From NCBI RefSeq assembly GCF_900182635.1, contig NZ_FXTD01000006.1, forward strand, positions 62,001 to 126,000: a DNA stretch of 64,000 nucleotides, in the 5' to 3' direction. Position 1 is the stretch's first letter. Every line of letters begins with the position of its first letter. Below the pieces are notes generated by a model. It was not told the DNA's origin and made no database searches. It saw only the letters and a list, made by a program, of their open reading frames with translations. Source of the DNA: Halorubrum cibi (GTDB lineage: Archaea > Halobacteriota > Halobacteria > Halobacteriales > Haloferacaceae). Both the position numbers and the translations under genes were made by a program. Positions 3,722 to 12,825 of this stretch are shown here, in pieces.

Positions 3722-3812
3722 ACGAACGCCTTCGGCGCTATCGGTGAAAAACCCGTTCCCATCGCCGGGGAGCGGCCGAGACGTTTTACCCGATCGGCGG
3801 CGTCCCCACCAC

Positions 3813-4223
3813 ATGGTCGAACGCAGCCGTCGCGCGCTCGTCGGGTCGTGTGGTGCCGCCTCGCTCGCCCTCCTCGCCGGATGTGCCGGGTTGACCGGCG
3901 GAACGGGCGGAGGCGGTGAGGACGCGGAGCCGGTCGATCGAACCGGGCGGGAGACGGTCGAGGTCGCCGTCGGGGCCGGAAACGGGCTCTCCTTTTCGCC
4001 GGCGAACGTTCGGATCGATCCCGGGACGACCGTCGTCTGGGAGTGGACCGGCGAGGGCGGCGGCCACAACGTCGTCGACGTCGACGGGGCCTTCGAGTCC
4101 GAGCTGACCGACGAGGCCGGCCACACCTTCGAGCACGCCTTCGAGGAGGCGGGCGTTCACGAGTACGTCTGTACCCCGCACCAGACGCAGGGGATGCGTG
4201 GGGTCGTCGAGGTCGTCGAGTGA
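3813..4223 (+). CDS. Halocyanin-type blue copper lipoprotein
   Basis: 136 residues. A twin-Arg-like N-terminus (SRRALVG) precedes a hydrophobic stretch and the lipobox LAGC with Cys24, so the mature protein should be lipid-anchored outside the cell. The plastocyanin fold is marked by FSPANVRIDPGTTV, the copper ligand His85 (GGHNVV) and the C-terminal ligand cluster Cys120, His123 and Met128 (YVCTPHQTQGM). Such proteins carry electrons between membrane complexes. The start at 3813 lies about 27 nt after a TTTTACC TATA-like box near 3785, consistent with a leaderless transcript. Confidence 0.93.
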   Translation: MVERSRRALVGSCGAASLALLAGCAGLTGGTGGGGEDAEPVDRTGRETVEVAVGAGNGLSFSPANVRIDPGTTVVWEWTGEGGGHNVVDVDGAFESELTDEAGHTFEHAFEEAGVHEYVCTPHQTQGMRGVVEVVE

Positions 4224-4345: not shown

Positions 4346-5566
4346 ATGGAGACGACGGAGACGTTCCGCGGGCTGGAGAGTCGCGCGTCCGGTCGGGTGT
4401 ACGAGACGGCCGACCCGACGGAACTCCCGGACGACGCGGACCACCTCGAGGCGACCTACGACTACGACGCGATCGACCCCGAGACCTTCCTCGATGGAAG
4501 TGGCGGAAGCGTCGTCGACGACGGCGAGCCAGCCGTGGCGGGCCACTGGCGGTACGACGCGCTCCTGCCGTTCCCCGCGTCGACCGGACTCTCCGCCAGC
4601 GAGGGGTCGACGCCGCTGGTTCCGACCGAGCGGCTGGCCGACGAACTCGGCGTCGCGAGCGTGTACGTCAAAGACGAGGGGCGAAACCCGACGGGAACCG
4701 TCCTCGACCGCGGGCTCTCCGTCGCGATGACCGCGGTCGCGGGAGTCGCCGCCGACCGCGAGGTGGAGCCGCTGGCGTGTGCGAGCCCCGGCAACGCCGG
4801 GCAGTCGATGGCGGCGTACGCGGGGCGGGCGGACCTGCGGTCATACGCGTTCGTCCCGTCGCGGTGCGCGTTCTCGAACAAGGCGATGACGAACGTCCAC
4901 GGCGGCGACATGCGGGTGGTCGGCGGGCGCTATCCCGACGCGGCCGCCGCCGTCGACGACCAACTGGAGACCGACTACACCGACCTCAACGAGTTCGCGA
5001 CTCCCTACCGCCACGAAGGGATCAAGACGGTCGCGTTCGAACTCGTCGCCGACCTCGGGGACGCGCCCGACGCCGTCGTCGTCCCGACGGGCACCGGCGA
5101 GGTGCTCGCGGGCGTGTACAAGGGTTTCGCCGAGCTGGCGCGGATCGGCGCGATCGACGCGGTTCCCCGGCTGGTCGCGGCTCAAGCGAGCGGCTGTGCC
5201 CCGATCGCGGCCGCGATCGAGCGCGGGCTCGACGAGCCTGAGCCGTGGTCCACGCCCGACACGATCTGCGGCGAACTGGAGATCCCCGATCCCGCCGGCG
5301 GCCGCGAGGCCCTGGAGGCGATCGAGGAGAGCGGCGGGACGGCGGTGACGGCCGACGACGAGGACGTCCTCGCGAGTGCGGTCGCCGTCGCCCAGAACGA
5401 GGTGATCGAGATGGGCGCGGCCGGCGGGGCCGCGCCGGCGGGTGCGTGGGAACTCGCCGAGGAGGACTACTTCGACGGCGACGAGACGGTCGTCCTGCTC
5501 AACACCGACGCCGGACTCAAGACGCCCGACGTGTTGCGCAGCCACCTGATGGGACAGGGGGTCTGA
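4346..5566 (+). CDS. Threonine synthase homologue lacking the PLP lysine
   Basis: 406 residues with the overall plan of archaeal threonine synthases: N-terminal zone ending in VPTERLADELG, a KDEGRNPTG segment (109-117), SPGNAGQSMAAYA, an AFSNKAMTNVHGG segment, and the phosphate-cup equivalent VPTGTGEVL. In the family the KDEG-NPTG stretch is followed by SFK, whose Lys forms the Schiff base with PLP. Here the equivalent residues are T118-V119-L120, so Lys is replaced by Leu while the following Arg-Gly is kept. The protein may be a non-catalytic or altered paralogue; PLP-fold membership is clear, threonine synthase activity is not. Confidence 0.85.
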   Translation: METTETFRGLESRASGRVYETADPTELPDDADHLEATYDYDAIDPETFLDGSGGSVVDDGEPAVAGHWRYDALLPFPASTGLSASEGSTPLVPTERLADELGVASVYVKDEGRNPTGTVLDRGLSVAMTAVAGVAADREVEPLACASPGNAGQSMAAYAGRADLRSYAFVPSRCAFSNKAMTNVHGGDMRVVGGRYPDAAAAVDDQLETDYTDLNEFATPYRHEGIKTVAFELVADLGDAPDAVVVPTGTGEVLAGVYKGFAELARIGAIDAVPRLVAAQASGCAPIAAAIERGLDEPEPWSTPDTICGELEIPDPAGGREALEAIEESGGTAVTADDEDVLASAVAVAQNEVIEMGAAGGAAPAGAWELAEEDYFDGDETVVLLNTDAGLKTPDVLRSHLMGQGV

Positions 5567-5638: not shown

Positions 5639-6748
5639 CTACGGCCGGCGGGTCACGCCGACGGCGAGCGTCGCGAGCACGGCCAGCACCGCGGCGACGA
5701 CTCCGAATCCGGGAGCCGCCTCTCCCGTTCCCGACGAGCCGTCATCGGCGCTCTGATCGCCCTCCTCGCTGCTCGCGTCGTACTCCTCGACCGCGTCCGC
5801 GATGGTCGCGGTCGTCTCCATCACGCTGCGGGGTGCCGGCTGGTTCAGCCACTGGACTTCGACCACGACCGCGTTCCCCTCCCGGCCGGCGGTCGTGCTC
5901 GCGTACGGCTCCTCGTCCATGATCGGCGCGTCGGGATCGTTGACGAGGATGAGTTCGGGATCCAGCTCGAGGACGACCTCGGCCGAGAGCTGCGGGTACC
6001 CCTCGTGCTCGGCGGCGGCGACGTTCTCGACCCCGCCGATCGTCATCAGCTCGTCGATGAAGGTGTCGCCGGCGGCGACGAACCCGCTCCCCAGCGGGTA
6101 GAGCGCGGCCGGCCGATCGAGGTCAGCGGTCCGGTTCCGGACCTCCTCAACGGTGTCGTTCATCTCCGCGTTGGTCTCGGCGGCGGCGTCACACTCGCCG
6201 ACGAGTCGGCCGACCGTCTCGGTCTTGTCGGCGATGTCGTCGACGTTAGTCGCCTCGGGGAAGTGGTACACCGTGAGTCCGGCGTTCCGGAGCGCCTCGA
6301 CCTGGTCTGCGGAGGCGTTGGGTGCCAACACCAGGTCGGGATCGGTGTCGACGACCCGCTCGACGCTGACGCCGAGTCCCGCCGCGGAGACGTTCGCCTT
6401 CCCTCCCGCGCCGTCGAGGTACGCGGCGTACTGGGTCACGCCGACGACGCGGTCGCGCGCGCCGATCTCCCACAGCGTCTGTGCGGCCGAGGGGTTCGTC
6501 GTCGCGATCCGCTCCGGTCGCTCCTCGAGCGCGATCGTCTCGCCCGTCGCGTCGGTCGTCTCGAGCGGGAACGAACACGCGGCGTCGTCCGTCTGGTGAG
6601 TCCCCGTCTGATGGATCCCCGTCCCGCGAATCTCCGTGGCCTCTCCCGTCTCGATCGTCGGCTGTGCGCCCGCCGCCCCGCCCGCGACGCCGCCCAGGAG
6701 GGCCGTCGTCACGAGCAGGGCGACCGTGACCGCGAAGCTGTCTCGCAT
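5639..6748 (-). CDS. btuF: Corrinoid (BtuF-like) ABC transporter substrate-binding protein, PGF-CTERM anchored
   Basis: 369 residues. A signal peptide (residues 1-28, ending AGGAAGAQ) leads into a class III periplasmic-binding fold: RPERIATTNPSAAQ, VVGVTQY, DPDLVLAPN, GLTVYHFP and the C-terminal half with ELDPELILVND. After an acidic Ser/Asp linker the protein ends with a PGF motif, a hydrophobic helix and RRP, the archaeosortase-processed PGF-CTERM anchor. It is divergent from the permease and ATPase genes. The two lobes and gene order match BtuF; haem or iron-chelate binding by the same fold cannot be excluded. Confidence 0.85.
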   Translation of the reverse strand: MRDSFAVTVALLVTTALLGGVAGGAAGAQPTIETGEATEIRGTGIHQTGTHQTDDAACSFPLETTDATGETIALEERPERIATTNPSAAQTLWEIGARDRVVGVTQYAAYLDGAGGKANVSAAGLGVSVERVVDTDPDLVLAPNASADQVEALRNAGLTVYHFPEATNVDDIADKTETVGRLVGECDAAAETNAEMNDTVEEVRNRTADLDRPAALYPLGSGFVAAGDTFIDELMTIGGVENVAAAEHEGYPQLSAEVVLELDPELILVNDPDAPIMDEEPYASTTAGREGNAVVVEVQWLNQPAPRSVMETTATIADAVEEYDASSEEGDQSADDGSSGTGEAAPGFGVVAAVLAVLATLAVGVTRRP

Positions 6749-6810
6749 CGACGTATCGACACGGGCGGTCCAATAAGTATTTACCTACTACAAGTTTTGT
6801 TGCCTATCGA
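6749..6810. promoter_or_regulatory. Divergent btuF / btuC promoter region
   Basis: A 62-nt AT-rich spacer between divergent starts. It contains AATAAGTATTTACC (about 6771-6784), which is about 27 nt before the btuF ATG on the minus strand, and AAGTTTTGTTG (about 6791-6801) before btuC. Both genes therefore look nearly leaderless. I see no TTAGG-type iron box, which argues against DtxR-type iron control. Confidence 0.55.
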
Positions 6811-7953
6811 ATGCGAGTCCGGCGTCGAGCCGTCGCGTGGTCGACCGCGTTAGCGGCCGCGCTGGCCGTTGTCGTCGTCGTCAGCGCCGGTATCGGTCCG
6901 GTTCGGATCCCGCCCGCGGAGGTGCTGAAGATCGTCTTGAACGCGGCGGTCGTGCCCGCGGGCGTGGAGTTCGGCACGGCGGGCGTCGGGCCGCTCGCGC
7001 TCCCCGGTGTCGAGTTCGCCTACCGGTCGCCGTTCGCGTTCCCGGTCGACGACGTCCACCGCCGGATCGTGCTGCTCGTCAGGCTCCCGCGGATCCTGCT
7101 CGCGGCGCTCGTCGGGTTCTCGCTCGCGGCCGCGGGCACCGTGATGCAGGGGTTCTTCCGGAACCCGATGGCCGACCCGTCGATCATCGGCGTCTCCTCG
7201 GGCGCGGCCGTCGGCGCGGTGTCGTTCATCGTCTTCCCGGTCGCGCTGTCGACGACGCTGACGCTCCCGCTTCTCGGCGCGGTCGACGTGGGCGTCTCCT
7301 ACGGGGCCGGCGTGAGCCTGTTCGCGTTCGTCGGCGCGCTGGTCGCGGCGTTCGGCGTGTACGCCATCGCGACCCGGCACGGCCGGACTCCGGTCGCGAC
7401 GCTGCTCTTGGCGGGCGTGGCCGTCCAGACGTTCCTCGGCGCGGTCATCTCGTACCTCCAACTGCGCGCCGGCGAGTCGCTCCGACGGATCGTCGCGTGG
7501 CTGATGGGCCACCTCTCGGGGGCAGCCTGGAGCGAGGTCGCGGTCGCGGCGCTCGTCGTCCCGCCGCTTTTCGCGGTGCTTCTCGCGTACGCTCGCGATC
7601 TCAACGTCCTGCTGCTCGGCGAGGAGGAGGCCCGTGGACTCGGCATAGCGGTCGAGCGCACGAAGCGGATCCTGCTCGCGACGAGCGCGCTGATCACGGC
7701 CGCGGGCGTCGCGTTCGCGGGGATCATCGGGTTCGTCGGCCTGATCGTCCCGCACATGCTCCGGCTCGTCGTCGGTCCCGATCACCGAATACTGCTCCCG
7801 ACCGCGGCGCTCTCGGGCGGGGCGTTCCTCGTCGCCGCCGACACCGCCGCCCGCTCCGGTACCGCCGAGTTGCCGGTCGGCGTCGTCACTGCCGCCGTCG
7901 GCGCGCCCTTCTTCGTCTACCTGCTGATGAACCGCGAGGTGTACGAGCTGTGA
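6811..7953 (+). CDS. btuC: Corrinoid ABC transporter permease (FecCD/BtuC family)
   Basis: 380 residues with about ten hydrophobic segments. Family landmarks are RLPRILLAALVGFSLAAAG near the first helices, GFFRNPMADPSIIGVSSGAA (the loop contacting the ATPase and binding protein), ARDLNVLLLGEEEARGLG (coupling helix region) and GFVGLIVPHMLRL near the C-terminus. It shares a divergent promoter with btuF and its stop codon overlaps the GTG start of the ATPase gene, so the two are translationally coupled. Length is slightly above the usual ~330-350 because of a longer first periplasmic loop. Confidence 0.92.
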   Translation: MRVRRRAVAWSTALAAALAVVVVVSAGIGPVRIPPAEVLKIVLNAAVVPAGVEFGTAGVGPLALPGVEFAYRSPFAFPVDDVHRRIVLLVRLPRILLAALVGFSLAAAGTVMQGFFRNPMADPSIIGVSSGAAVGAVSFIVFPVALSTTLTLPLLGAVDVGVSYGAGVSLFAFVGALVAAFGVYAIATRHGRTPVATLLLAGVAVQTFLGAVISYLQLRAGESLRRIVAWLMGHLSGAAWSEVAVAALVVPPLFAVLLAYARDLNVLLLGEEEARGLGIAVERTKRILLATSALITAAGVAFAGIIGFVGLIVPHMLRLVVGPDHRILLPTAALSGGAFLVAADTAARSGTAELPVGVVTAAVGAPFFVYLLMNREVYEL

Positions 7954-9221
7954 GCGGGGACGTCGGTCCCGCGGACGACGCCACCGCCGGCGTCGCCGCC
8001 GCGGACGACACCGGCGATGGCGACGCCGCGGACCGCCCCTCCGCCGGCGGTCCGCTCGTCGCCGTCCGCGATCTGACCGTCTCCTTCGGTGACATCGAGG
8101 CGGTCTCCGGGGTCGACCTGACCGTCGAGCGGGGAACGCTCGTCGGTCTCGTCGGTCCGAATGGCGCGGGAAAGACGACCGCGCTCCGAGCGATCACGGG
8201 GGCGCTCGAGGCCGACGAGGGCGACGTGCGTCTCGACGGCGACCCGACGTCGGAGCTGTCGGCCCGCGAGGTCGCTCGCCGGGTGGCGAGCGTGCCGCAG
8301 GAGACCGGGCTCTCCTTCGACTTCCCGGTCCGCCACGTCGTCGAGATGGGTCGAACCCCGTACCTCGGGCGGTTCGACGGACACGACGCCGAGGACGCGG
8401 CCGCGGTCGACGAGGCGATGGCCGCCGCCGGTGTCGAACGGTTCGCCGACCGGTCCATAACCGAGGTGTCGGGGGGCGAGCGCCAGCGCGTCCTCCTCGC
8501 GCGGGCGCTGGCTCAGGAGACGCCGACGCTGCTGCTCGACGAGCCGACGGCGAGCCTCGACGTGAACCACGCCGTGGCGACGATGGAACTGGTCCGCGAC
8601 ATCGCCGACGACGGCCGCGCCGCGATCGCGGCGATCCACGACCTCGACATGGCGGCCCGCTACTGCGACCGGATCGTCGTCATCGCCGGCGGCCGGGTCC
8701 GCGCCGACGGCCCGCCGGCGGACGTGCTCGACGCCGCGGCGGTCCGCGACGCGTTCGACGCGGAAGCGTTCGTCGGCCGGAACCCGGCGACCGGGACGCC
8801 CGCGGTCACGGCCTTCCCGCGGTCCGAAGTCGACTCCCGTCGGGTCCACGTCGTCGGTACCGGCCCGGACGCGGCGCGGGTCGTGGCGCGGCTCGCGGCC
8901 GCCGGCCACGAGACCTCTCTCGGCGTCGTTCCCGAGGGCGACGCCGCCGCCGTGGCCGCCGCGGACGCGAGCGCGAGGGTAGTGACCGTCCCGCCCTTCG
9001 CCGGCGTCGACGACGAGTCGCTGGCGGCGGCGAGCGAACTGGCCGCCGACGCGGACGTCGCGGTCGTCGTCGGCGGAGACGGGGGGTACTCCGACGGGAC
9101 GGACCCCTACCGAATGGACTCATGCGATCGGATCGCGGGCGCGGTGGAGCGCGTCGTCGAGGTCCCGAGCGACGTCGCCGGCGAGGACTTGCTGGCCGCG
9201 GTGGCGGACGCCACGGCGTAG
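7950..9221 (+). CDS. btuD: Corrinoid ABC transporter ATPase with C-terminal extension
   Basis: 423 residues from a GTG that overlaps the btuC stop by 4 nt (GTGA). After an acidic ~35-residue leader come Walker A GPNGAGKT (69-76), Q-loop VPQETG, signature VSGGERQ, Walker B LLLDEP and the H-loop HD, so the ATPase is complete within about 290 residues. The remaining ~130 residues form a second domain beginning RRVHVVGTGPDAARVV, which resembles a small Rossmann-like fold (VVVGG and repeated beta-alpha pattern) and is absent from bacterial BtuD. Its role is unknown. Confidence 0.9.
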   Translation: MSGDVGPADDATAGVAAADDTGDGDAADRPSAGGPLVAVRDLTVSFGDIEAVSGVDLTVERGTLVGLVGPNGAGKTTALRAITGALEADEGDVRLDGDPTSELSAREVARRVASVPQETGLSFDFPVRHVVEMGRTPYLGRFDGHDAEDAAAVDEAMAAAGVERFADRSITEVSGGERQRVLLARALAQETPTLLLDEPTASLDVNHAVATMELVRDIADDGRAAIAAIHDLDMAARYCDRIVVIAGGRVRADGPPADVLDAAAVRDAFDAEAFVGRNPATGTPAVTAFPRSEVDSRRVHVVGTGPDAARVVARLAAAGHETSLGVVPEGDAAAVAAADASARVVTVPPFAGVDDESLAAASELAADADVAVVVGGDGGYSDGTDPYRMDSCDRIAGAVERVVEVPSDVAGEDLLAAVADATA

Positions 9222-11778: not shown

Positions 11779-12825
11779 CTACGCCGAGAGTTCCTCGACG
11801 ACCTCGCCCACCCGATCGATCGCGTCCTCGACGTCCCCGTCGTCGATCCCGAGGTTCGTCGTGAACCGCGTCGTGTACGTGTCGAACTCGCCGCAGCCGA
11901 CGCCGGCGTCCGTACAGGCCTCGACGAGGTCGCTCGCCTCGATCCCGGCCGCCTCGGTGTCGGCGACGACGATGTTCGTGTCGGGTTCGGGAACCGAGAC
12001 GCCGGGAAGCGCGTCGAGCCCGGCCGCGAGGGCGGCGGCGTTTGCGTGGTCCTCCGCGAGACGCTCGACGTTCTCCAGCGCGAGCAGGCCGGGCGCGGCG
12101 ATCATCCCCGCCTGACGCATCCCGCCGCCGAACAGCTTGCGGACCCGCCGGGCCTCGTCGATGAACGCCTCGTCGCCGGCGAGGATCGAGCCGACCGGCG
12201 CACCGAGTCCCTTCGAGAGACAGAAAGTGACGCTGTCGATCTCCTCGAGCAACGAGGGAACGGACGTACCGAGCGCGACGCTCGCGTTGAACACGCGTGC
12301 GCCGTCGAGGTGAACCGGCACGCCGGCGTCGTGCGCGGCGGTCGCGGCCGCGTCGAGCCGCGCTTTGGGAACCGCGACTCCCCCGCGGTAGTTGTGGGTG
12401 TTCTCGAGGCTCAAGAGACCGGTCCCCGGCCGGTGGAGGTCCTCCTCGACGACCTCCCGCTCGACCTCCTCGGCGGTCGGGACGCACCGATCGCCGGCGT
12501 CGATCGTCCGGGTCTGAAGCCCCGAGAGCGCCGACGCGCCCGCGAGCTCCCACCGGTAGACGTGCGACTCACGCTCGAGGAGGATCTCCTGTCCGGGCTC
12601 GGTGTGGACGCTGATCGCGATCTGGTTCGCCATCGTCCCGCTCGGCGTGTAGAGGGCGGCCTCCGTGCCGACGGCCTCGGCCGCGCGGCGCTCCAGCTCG
12701 TTGACCGTCGGGTCGTCGCGGTACACGTCGTCGCCGACCTCGGCGTCCCGCGCCGCGTCCCGCATCGCTTCCGAGGGCTTCGTGACGGTGTCGGATCGCA
12801 TGTCGATGAAGTCGTCCGTGGACAT
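11779..12825 (-). CDS. ltaE: Low-specificity L-threonine aldolase
   Basis: 348 residues of the fold-type I PLP beta-eliminating lyase family. Seen are the N-terminal DMRSDTVTKPSEAMRDA, GDDVYRDDPTVNELE, the TPSGTMANQIAI loop, HLDGARVFNA (Asp and Arg that bind PLP and carboxylate) and the Schiff-base lysine in FCLSKGLGAPVGS. This enzyme cleaves L-threonine or allo-threonine to glycine and acetaldehyde. The start at 12825 gives the canonical N-terminus. A 7-bp hairpin (CGATTCC-TAC-GGAATCG, 11742-11758) lies just after the stop and may help termination. Confidence 0.93.
   Translation of the reverse strand: MSTDDFIDMRSDTVTKPSEAMRDAARDAEVGDDVYRDDPTVNELERRAAEAVGTEAALYTPSGTMANQIAISVHTEPGQEILLERESHVYRWELAGASALSGLQTRTIDAGDRCVPTAEEVEREVVEEDLHRPGTGLLSLENTHNYRGGVAVPKARLDAAATAAHDAGVPVHLDGARVFNASVALGTSVPSLLEEIDSVTFCLSKGLGAPVGSILAGDEAFIDEARRVRKLFGGGMRQAGMIAAPGLLALENVERLAEDHANAAALAAGLDALPGVSVPEPDTNIVVADTEAAGIEASDLVEACTDAGVGCGEFDTYTTRFTTNLGIDDGDVEDAIDRVGEVVEELSA

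Follow-up and report, generated by a model that had tools for sequence, protein, structure and literature searches.

Threonine synthases (ThrC; TIGR00260/PRK08197; PDB entries 2zsj, 1uim, 2d1f, and 6nmx) gave the top sequence and structure matches to the haloarchaeal protein studied here, and both shared a common fold, the KDEG-NPT-DR frame, S-x-GN, EGxKT, and the GxK C-terminal motif; in contrast to ThrC, however, this protein had no Schiff-base lysine, displayed TGTGEV at the phosphate cup, where TGGGVG or VGNAGN would be found, and scored under the PRK08197 cut-off. LCB1 of serine palmitoyltransferase is likewise a PLP-fold protein without the PLP lysine, but it belongs to fold type I and forms an obligate heterodimer with LCB2. 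In eudicots, the dead tryptophan-synthase beta paralogue TSB-like activates the alpha subunit, its loss of activity being ascribed to changes at E190 and D386 (PMC12727527). TSB-like thus offers, as a fold type II PLP-enzyme paralogue without catalysis, a precedent for partner activation, but its inactivation is not ascribed to loss of the lysine, which the subfamily described below lost recurrently. In trypanosomatids, a catalytically dead paralogue of deoxyhypusine synthase, whose fold is unrelated, reportedly serves its active counterpart as an allosteric partner (PMC3663545).

The gene was located in the window, by which is meant the whole 64,000-nucleotide stretch analysed (Halorubrum cibi contig NZ_FXTD01000006.1, positions 62,001 to 126,000 of the forward strand). 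This putative pseudo-threonine-synthase gene (4346..5566, + strand, as are all its inner features) encoded a 406-aa protein (P0001, the window protein), which is a fold type II member of the PALP superfamily: Pfam PALP (PF00291) matched residues 84-388 with 213.7 bits, the AlphaFold2 model (built from 37 family sequences) had a mean pLDDT of 94.1, and the top PDB structure matches of this model were threonine synthases with TM-scores up to 0.87. The scores of the window protein lay under the cut-offs of both NCBIfam PRK08197 (261.3 vs 303 bits) and TIGR00260 (133.7 vs 167.1 bits). Its inner features were as follows: (i) KDEGRNPTGTVLDRG (residues 109-123; 4670..4714), the counterpart of KDEG-NPTG-SFK-DRG, with the Leu120 codon ctc (4703..4705) at the Schiff-base lysine position; (ii) SPGNAGQ (residues 147-153; 4784..4804), retained as an earlier note on this DNA had claimed for SPGNAG; (iii) the subfamily block RCAFSNKAMTNVHGGDM (residues 173-189; 4862..4912), absent from canonical ThrC; (iv) the degenerate phosphate cup PTGTGEVL (residues 247-254; 5084..5107), with Glu252 in the loop; and (v) NTDAGLK (residues 386-392; 5501..5521) in the region of the pyridine-N1 contact, in which Thr387 was kept and position 388 was changed from Gly to Asp. 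Contact roles of single residues are assigned here by analogy with fold type II enzymes in general and by the alignment, rather than from coordinates; Asn150 in SPGNAGQ, for instance, was taken to be the O3' contact of PLP.

The sequences of the PDB matches 2zsj, 1uim, and 2d1f carried SFKDRG aligned over TVLDRG of the window protein, with Leu120 under their lysine, so the earlier description of a ThrC homologue having Leu in place of the Schiff-base Lys held. A sequencing error was rejected, since the nearest relatives were lysine-less too (TVL, TVF, or SVL in the Halorubrum-clade rows; closest relative Halorubrum aquaticum, 92%) and since the lysine was missing in 149 of the 218 distinct subfamily members read from several families and present in the other 69, a 149:69 ratio that is biased and gives no population estimate because members were sampled by similarity to a lysine-less query. 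The subfamily itself was found in 239/242 sampled Halobacteria genomes (E<=1e-58). Position 120 of the lysine-less members was occupied by thirteen different residues (L74, A22, T14, V10, R6, D6, F4, Y4, G3, S2, E2, H1, and I1), without any conserved replacement of the kind of a ColD-type catalytic base, which argues that no new residue was selected there and that the position was simply released. The Haloferacaceae orthologues read were lysine-less, and the two forms were mixed down to the genus level in Natrialbaceae, Haloarculaceae, and Halobacteriaceae; the TVL form was not one odd clade, a point that the earlier note had proposed to check, but part of a recurrent lysine loss. The lysine-less Natronorubrum protein L060 (6001-7191) passed PRK08197 (329.8 vs cut-off 303).

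The loss extended to other parts of the cofactor site. The cup TGGGVG was present in 66/69 lysine-bearing members and 0/149 lysine-less ones (the canonical ThrC cup being VGNAGN), and the phosphate-cup region of the window protein, previously read as intact, was TGTGEV. Similarly, T387-G388 in the pyridine-nitrogen region was found in 60/69 lysine-bearing vs 13/149 lysine-less members, and K226-K227 in 66/69 vs 2/149. The loss of the cup along with the lysine indicates that the whole PLP site, not one residue alone, was abandoned. Asn150 and Thr/Ser at position 387 were kept in many lysine-less members including the window protein, and weak non-covalent binding of PLP or of another ligand may thus be possible. 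Sign tests for co-loss of cup and lysine across independent lineages gave no significance, there being too few pairs. Three members (L158, L160, and L241) had Lys120 yet degenerate cups (LEGTEG, LDGTAG, and TGAGTG, respectively), so lysine state and cup were not perfectly tied; these members are possibly relics, or cases in which lysine came back by chance. At the N-terminus, the zinc-ribbon with four cysteines known from ThrC was intact in 67/69 lysine-bearing members and absent in 47 lysine-less members including the window protein (residues 15-30; window 4388-4435).

The subfamily block had the pattern R173-x2-F176-x2-K179-A-M181-x-N183-V-H185-G-G, in which R173 and K179 were invariant in 218/218 members and F176, M181, N183, and H185 were nearly so, in both forms. 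Lysine-bearing members (L002 and L063 type) shared this block (R-x2-F-x2-KAM-x-NVHGG) with the window protein but differed from it in having Lys120 and TGGGVG and in scoring above the PRK08197 cut-off (366-390 bits). In comparison with canonical ThrC, the block R173-G187 was confined to the window subfamily, and no block at about residues 173-187 was found in canonical-type ThrC matches read from other archaea of the phylum. A total of 47 positions were >=98% conserved among lysine-less members, including K109, T116, D121, R122, R173, F176, K179, M181, N183, H185, Q280, and R398; Q153, R173, F176, K179, M181, N183, and R398 were different in the canonical ThrC (L003) of the same genome. Values of dN/dS between lysine-less pairs were 0.09-0.26, the K112, K113, and K056 pairs being left out as their coordinates were out of frame. 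The near-invariant positions and low dN/dS point to selection acting elsewhere than on the cofactor site; a pseudogene was ruled out by these dN/dS values together with the presence in nearly all genomes, in agreement with the earlier remark that the gene is not simply decayed. As in pseudoenzymes, essential catalytic residues (lysine and cup) were gone, yet the protein was conserved under selection.

The lysine-less members are, on balance, best understood as PLP-independent pseudoenzymes under selection, a reading that seems fairly likely. The ancestor would have been a haloarchaea-specific ThrC relative with Lys120 and the TGGGVG cup, several lineages would independently have lost covalent and phosphate-mediated PLP binding, and fold and subfamily block would have been held under strong selection throughout. 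The loss of the PLP site with retention of fold and block suggests a near-universal function independent of PLP catalysis; the protein would presumably neither bind PLP nor catalyse, and it probably acts as a regulator or partner protein, with a regulatory or scaffolding role in which the former active-site cleft may bind another protein or a ligand. The ThrC fold would be kept for this along with a conserved cleft or surface. A more tentative version, plausible but short of an even chance, holds that the role never was the PLP reaction: the protein would have been a subunit that activates or senses, serving canonical ThrC or another amino-acid enzyme, for instance, and the PLP site would have been shed repeatedly in parallel lineages, leaving a natural gradation from working enzyme over intermediates (e.g., L181) to pseudoenzyme.

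Candidate partners would be canonical lysine-bearing ThrC and, in Halorubrum, also the L002-type lysine copy. The existence of lysine-containing paralogues in the same genome, raised as a question before, was established: L002 (TFK; G000:C2:158238-159434) was a lysine-bearing member of the same subfamily, L003 (SFK) was canonical ThrC (TIGR00260 296 bits vs cut-off 167), and further homologues were present. Most Halorubrum genomes carried such a second, lysine-bearing subfamily copy, and most non-Halorubrum Haloferacaceae had one subfamily copy only; canonical ThrC was found in 77/79 Haloferacaceae genomes. Halohasta (G004) had only the lysine-less gene and canonical ThrC above threshold, and canonical ThrC would therefore be the sole ThrC-family partner there; as the partner in general it is a doubtful candidate. 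In Haloferax volcanii, insertion in thrC3/HVO_2969 gave an auxotrophic strain whose growth was restored by Gly, Ser, and Thr (PMC4300041), and HVO_2970 is the regulator OxsR (PMC9426492). An OxsR-matching ORF (single winged helix, Cys24) immediately preceded the lysine-bearing ThrC in Haloferax-like genomes; HVO_2969 was thus rejected as the lysine-less gene and is most likely canonical ThrC, in which case the auxotrophy indicates that canonical ThrC cannot be substituted by its lysine-less paralogue. A search for the H. volcanii orthologue through a link to aIF2-alpha (HVO_0699) was abandoned, aIF2-alpha being missing from the flanking regions that were read in the Haloferax-like genome.

Gene order gave no functional partner: only a divergent FAD oxidoreductase gene recurred, adjoining the subject gene in 41 related loci (most families) with no obvious functional tie, and its place in the window was taken by a halocyanin-like gene upstream (3744..4223, +; halocyanin/plastocyanin-type by eye from the sequence). 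Downstream, and outside the finding, lay a gene of BtuF-type substrate-binding look (5639..6748, -), the first of BtuF-BtuC-BtuD ABC uptake-like ORFs (5639-9221), and farther on a threonine-aldolase-like ORF (11779-12825, -), all named by eye.

Lysine-bearing and lysine-less members occupied the same chromosomal slot in Natrialbaceae, and the gene tree with the motif masked required at least 7 state changes (18 losses if loss is irreversible); the minimum was 9 when the pocket columns were also masked. An alternative history, compatible with the pseudoenzyme reading and judged unlikely, is one ancient loss that gave rise to a lysine-less paralogue, after which lineages would have differed in the copy that they lost and would have replaced genes from one another. 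Haloarchaea recombine widely, both forms were present in Halorubrum, and Natronorubrum L060 (STT) and L063 (TFK) fell into different clades despite common flanking genes, all of which would suit such a history. Several losses are needed, however, by well supported contrasts within one genus, namely, L148 (VAA) vs L146 (SFK) and L175 (SIA) vs L163 (SFK), and by L181 (TFR, cup TGDGGG), which sat inside a TFK group; they are needed anyway in the Natrialbaceae-focused tree, where lysine-less forms stood beside Natrialbaceae lysine forms and apart from other families, a grouping that argues for loss within Natrialbaceae. A constraint placing L060, L061, L063, and L243 in one clade was rejected. The separation of L060 and L063 in the gene tree, with their common chromosomal slot, reflects either recombination replacement or a fast-evolving lysine-less lineage.

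Slightly less likely still is an enzyme with new chemistry in the retained cleft, either PLP-free or using non-covalent PLP/PMP like lysine-free ColD-type enzymes. The cleft residues K109, T116, G149, Q153, Q280, R222, and K227 were conserved and retention was near-universal, which speaks for it, but the variety of residues at position 120 and the variable cup leave no common catalytic replacement, and ColD-like chemistry requires the PLP phosphate site. Improbable, too, is a relaxed, slowly dying ThrC paralogue without important function: lysine-less members did evolve faster (mean column entropy 1.32 vs 0.70) on long branches, and the N-terminal zinc-ribbon cysteines were lost in Halorubrum, but the low dN/dS, reading frames open over their full length, the 47 nearly invariant positions, and the occurrence in almost every genome stand against it. 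Least probable of all is a relocated aldimine lysine (K109 or K179) in a protein that is still a PLP enzyme, the "other lysine" allowed for in the earlier note: both residues were lysine in 149/149 lysine-less members, but also in 69/69 Lys120 members and so are not compensatory, the phosphate cup that such an aldimine would still need was lost along with Lys120, and none of the P0001 lysines 109, 179, 227, 259, and 392 looks like a replacement because all five were lysine in every lysine-bearing relative, no lysine being specific to lysine-less members.

No description of this subfamily was found in the open-access literature searched. Pseudoenzymes are already known; what would be new is that an archaeal protein of ThrC fold, present almost universally, underwent such loss recurrently. 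Automatic annotation can label lysine-less proteins as threonine synthase, as with L060, and thereby mislead pathway reconstruction in haloarchaea. If the pseudoenzyme reading is true, a fold type II PLP pseudoenzyme would have arisen several times within a single group of organisms, and live and dead forms within one genus or within the Natrialbaceae slot would allow a direct test of what a dead enzyme is for, the same contrast showing which residues were released first.
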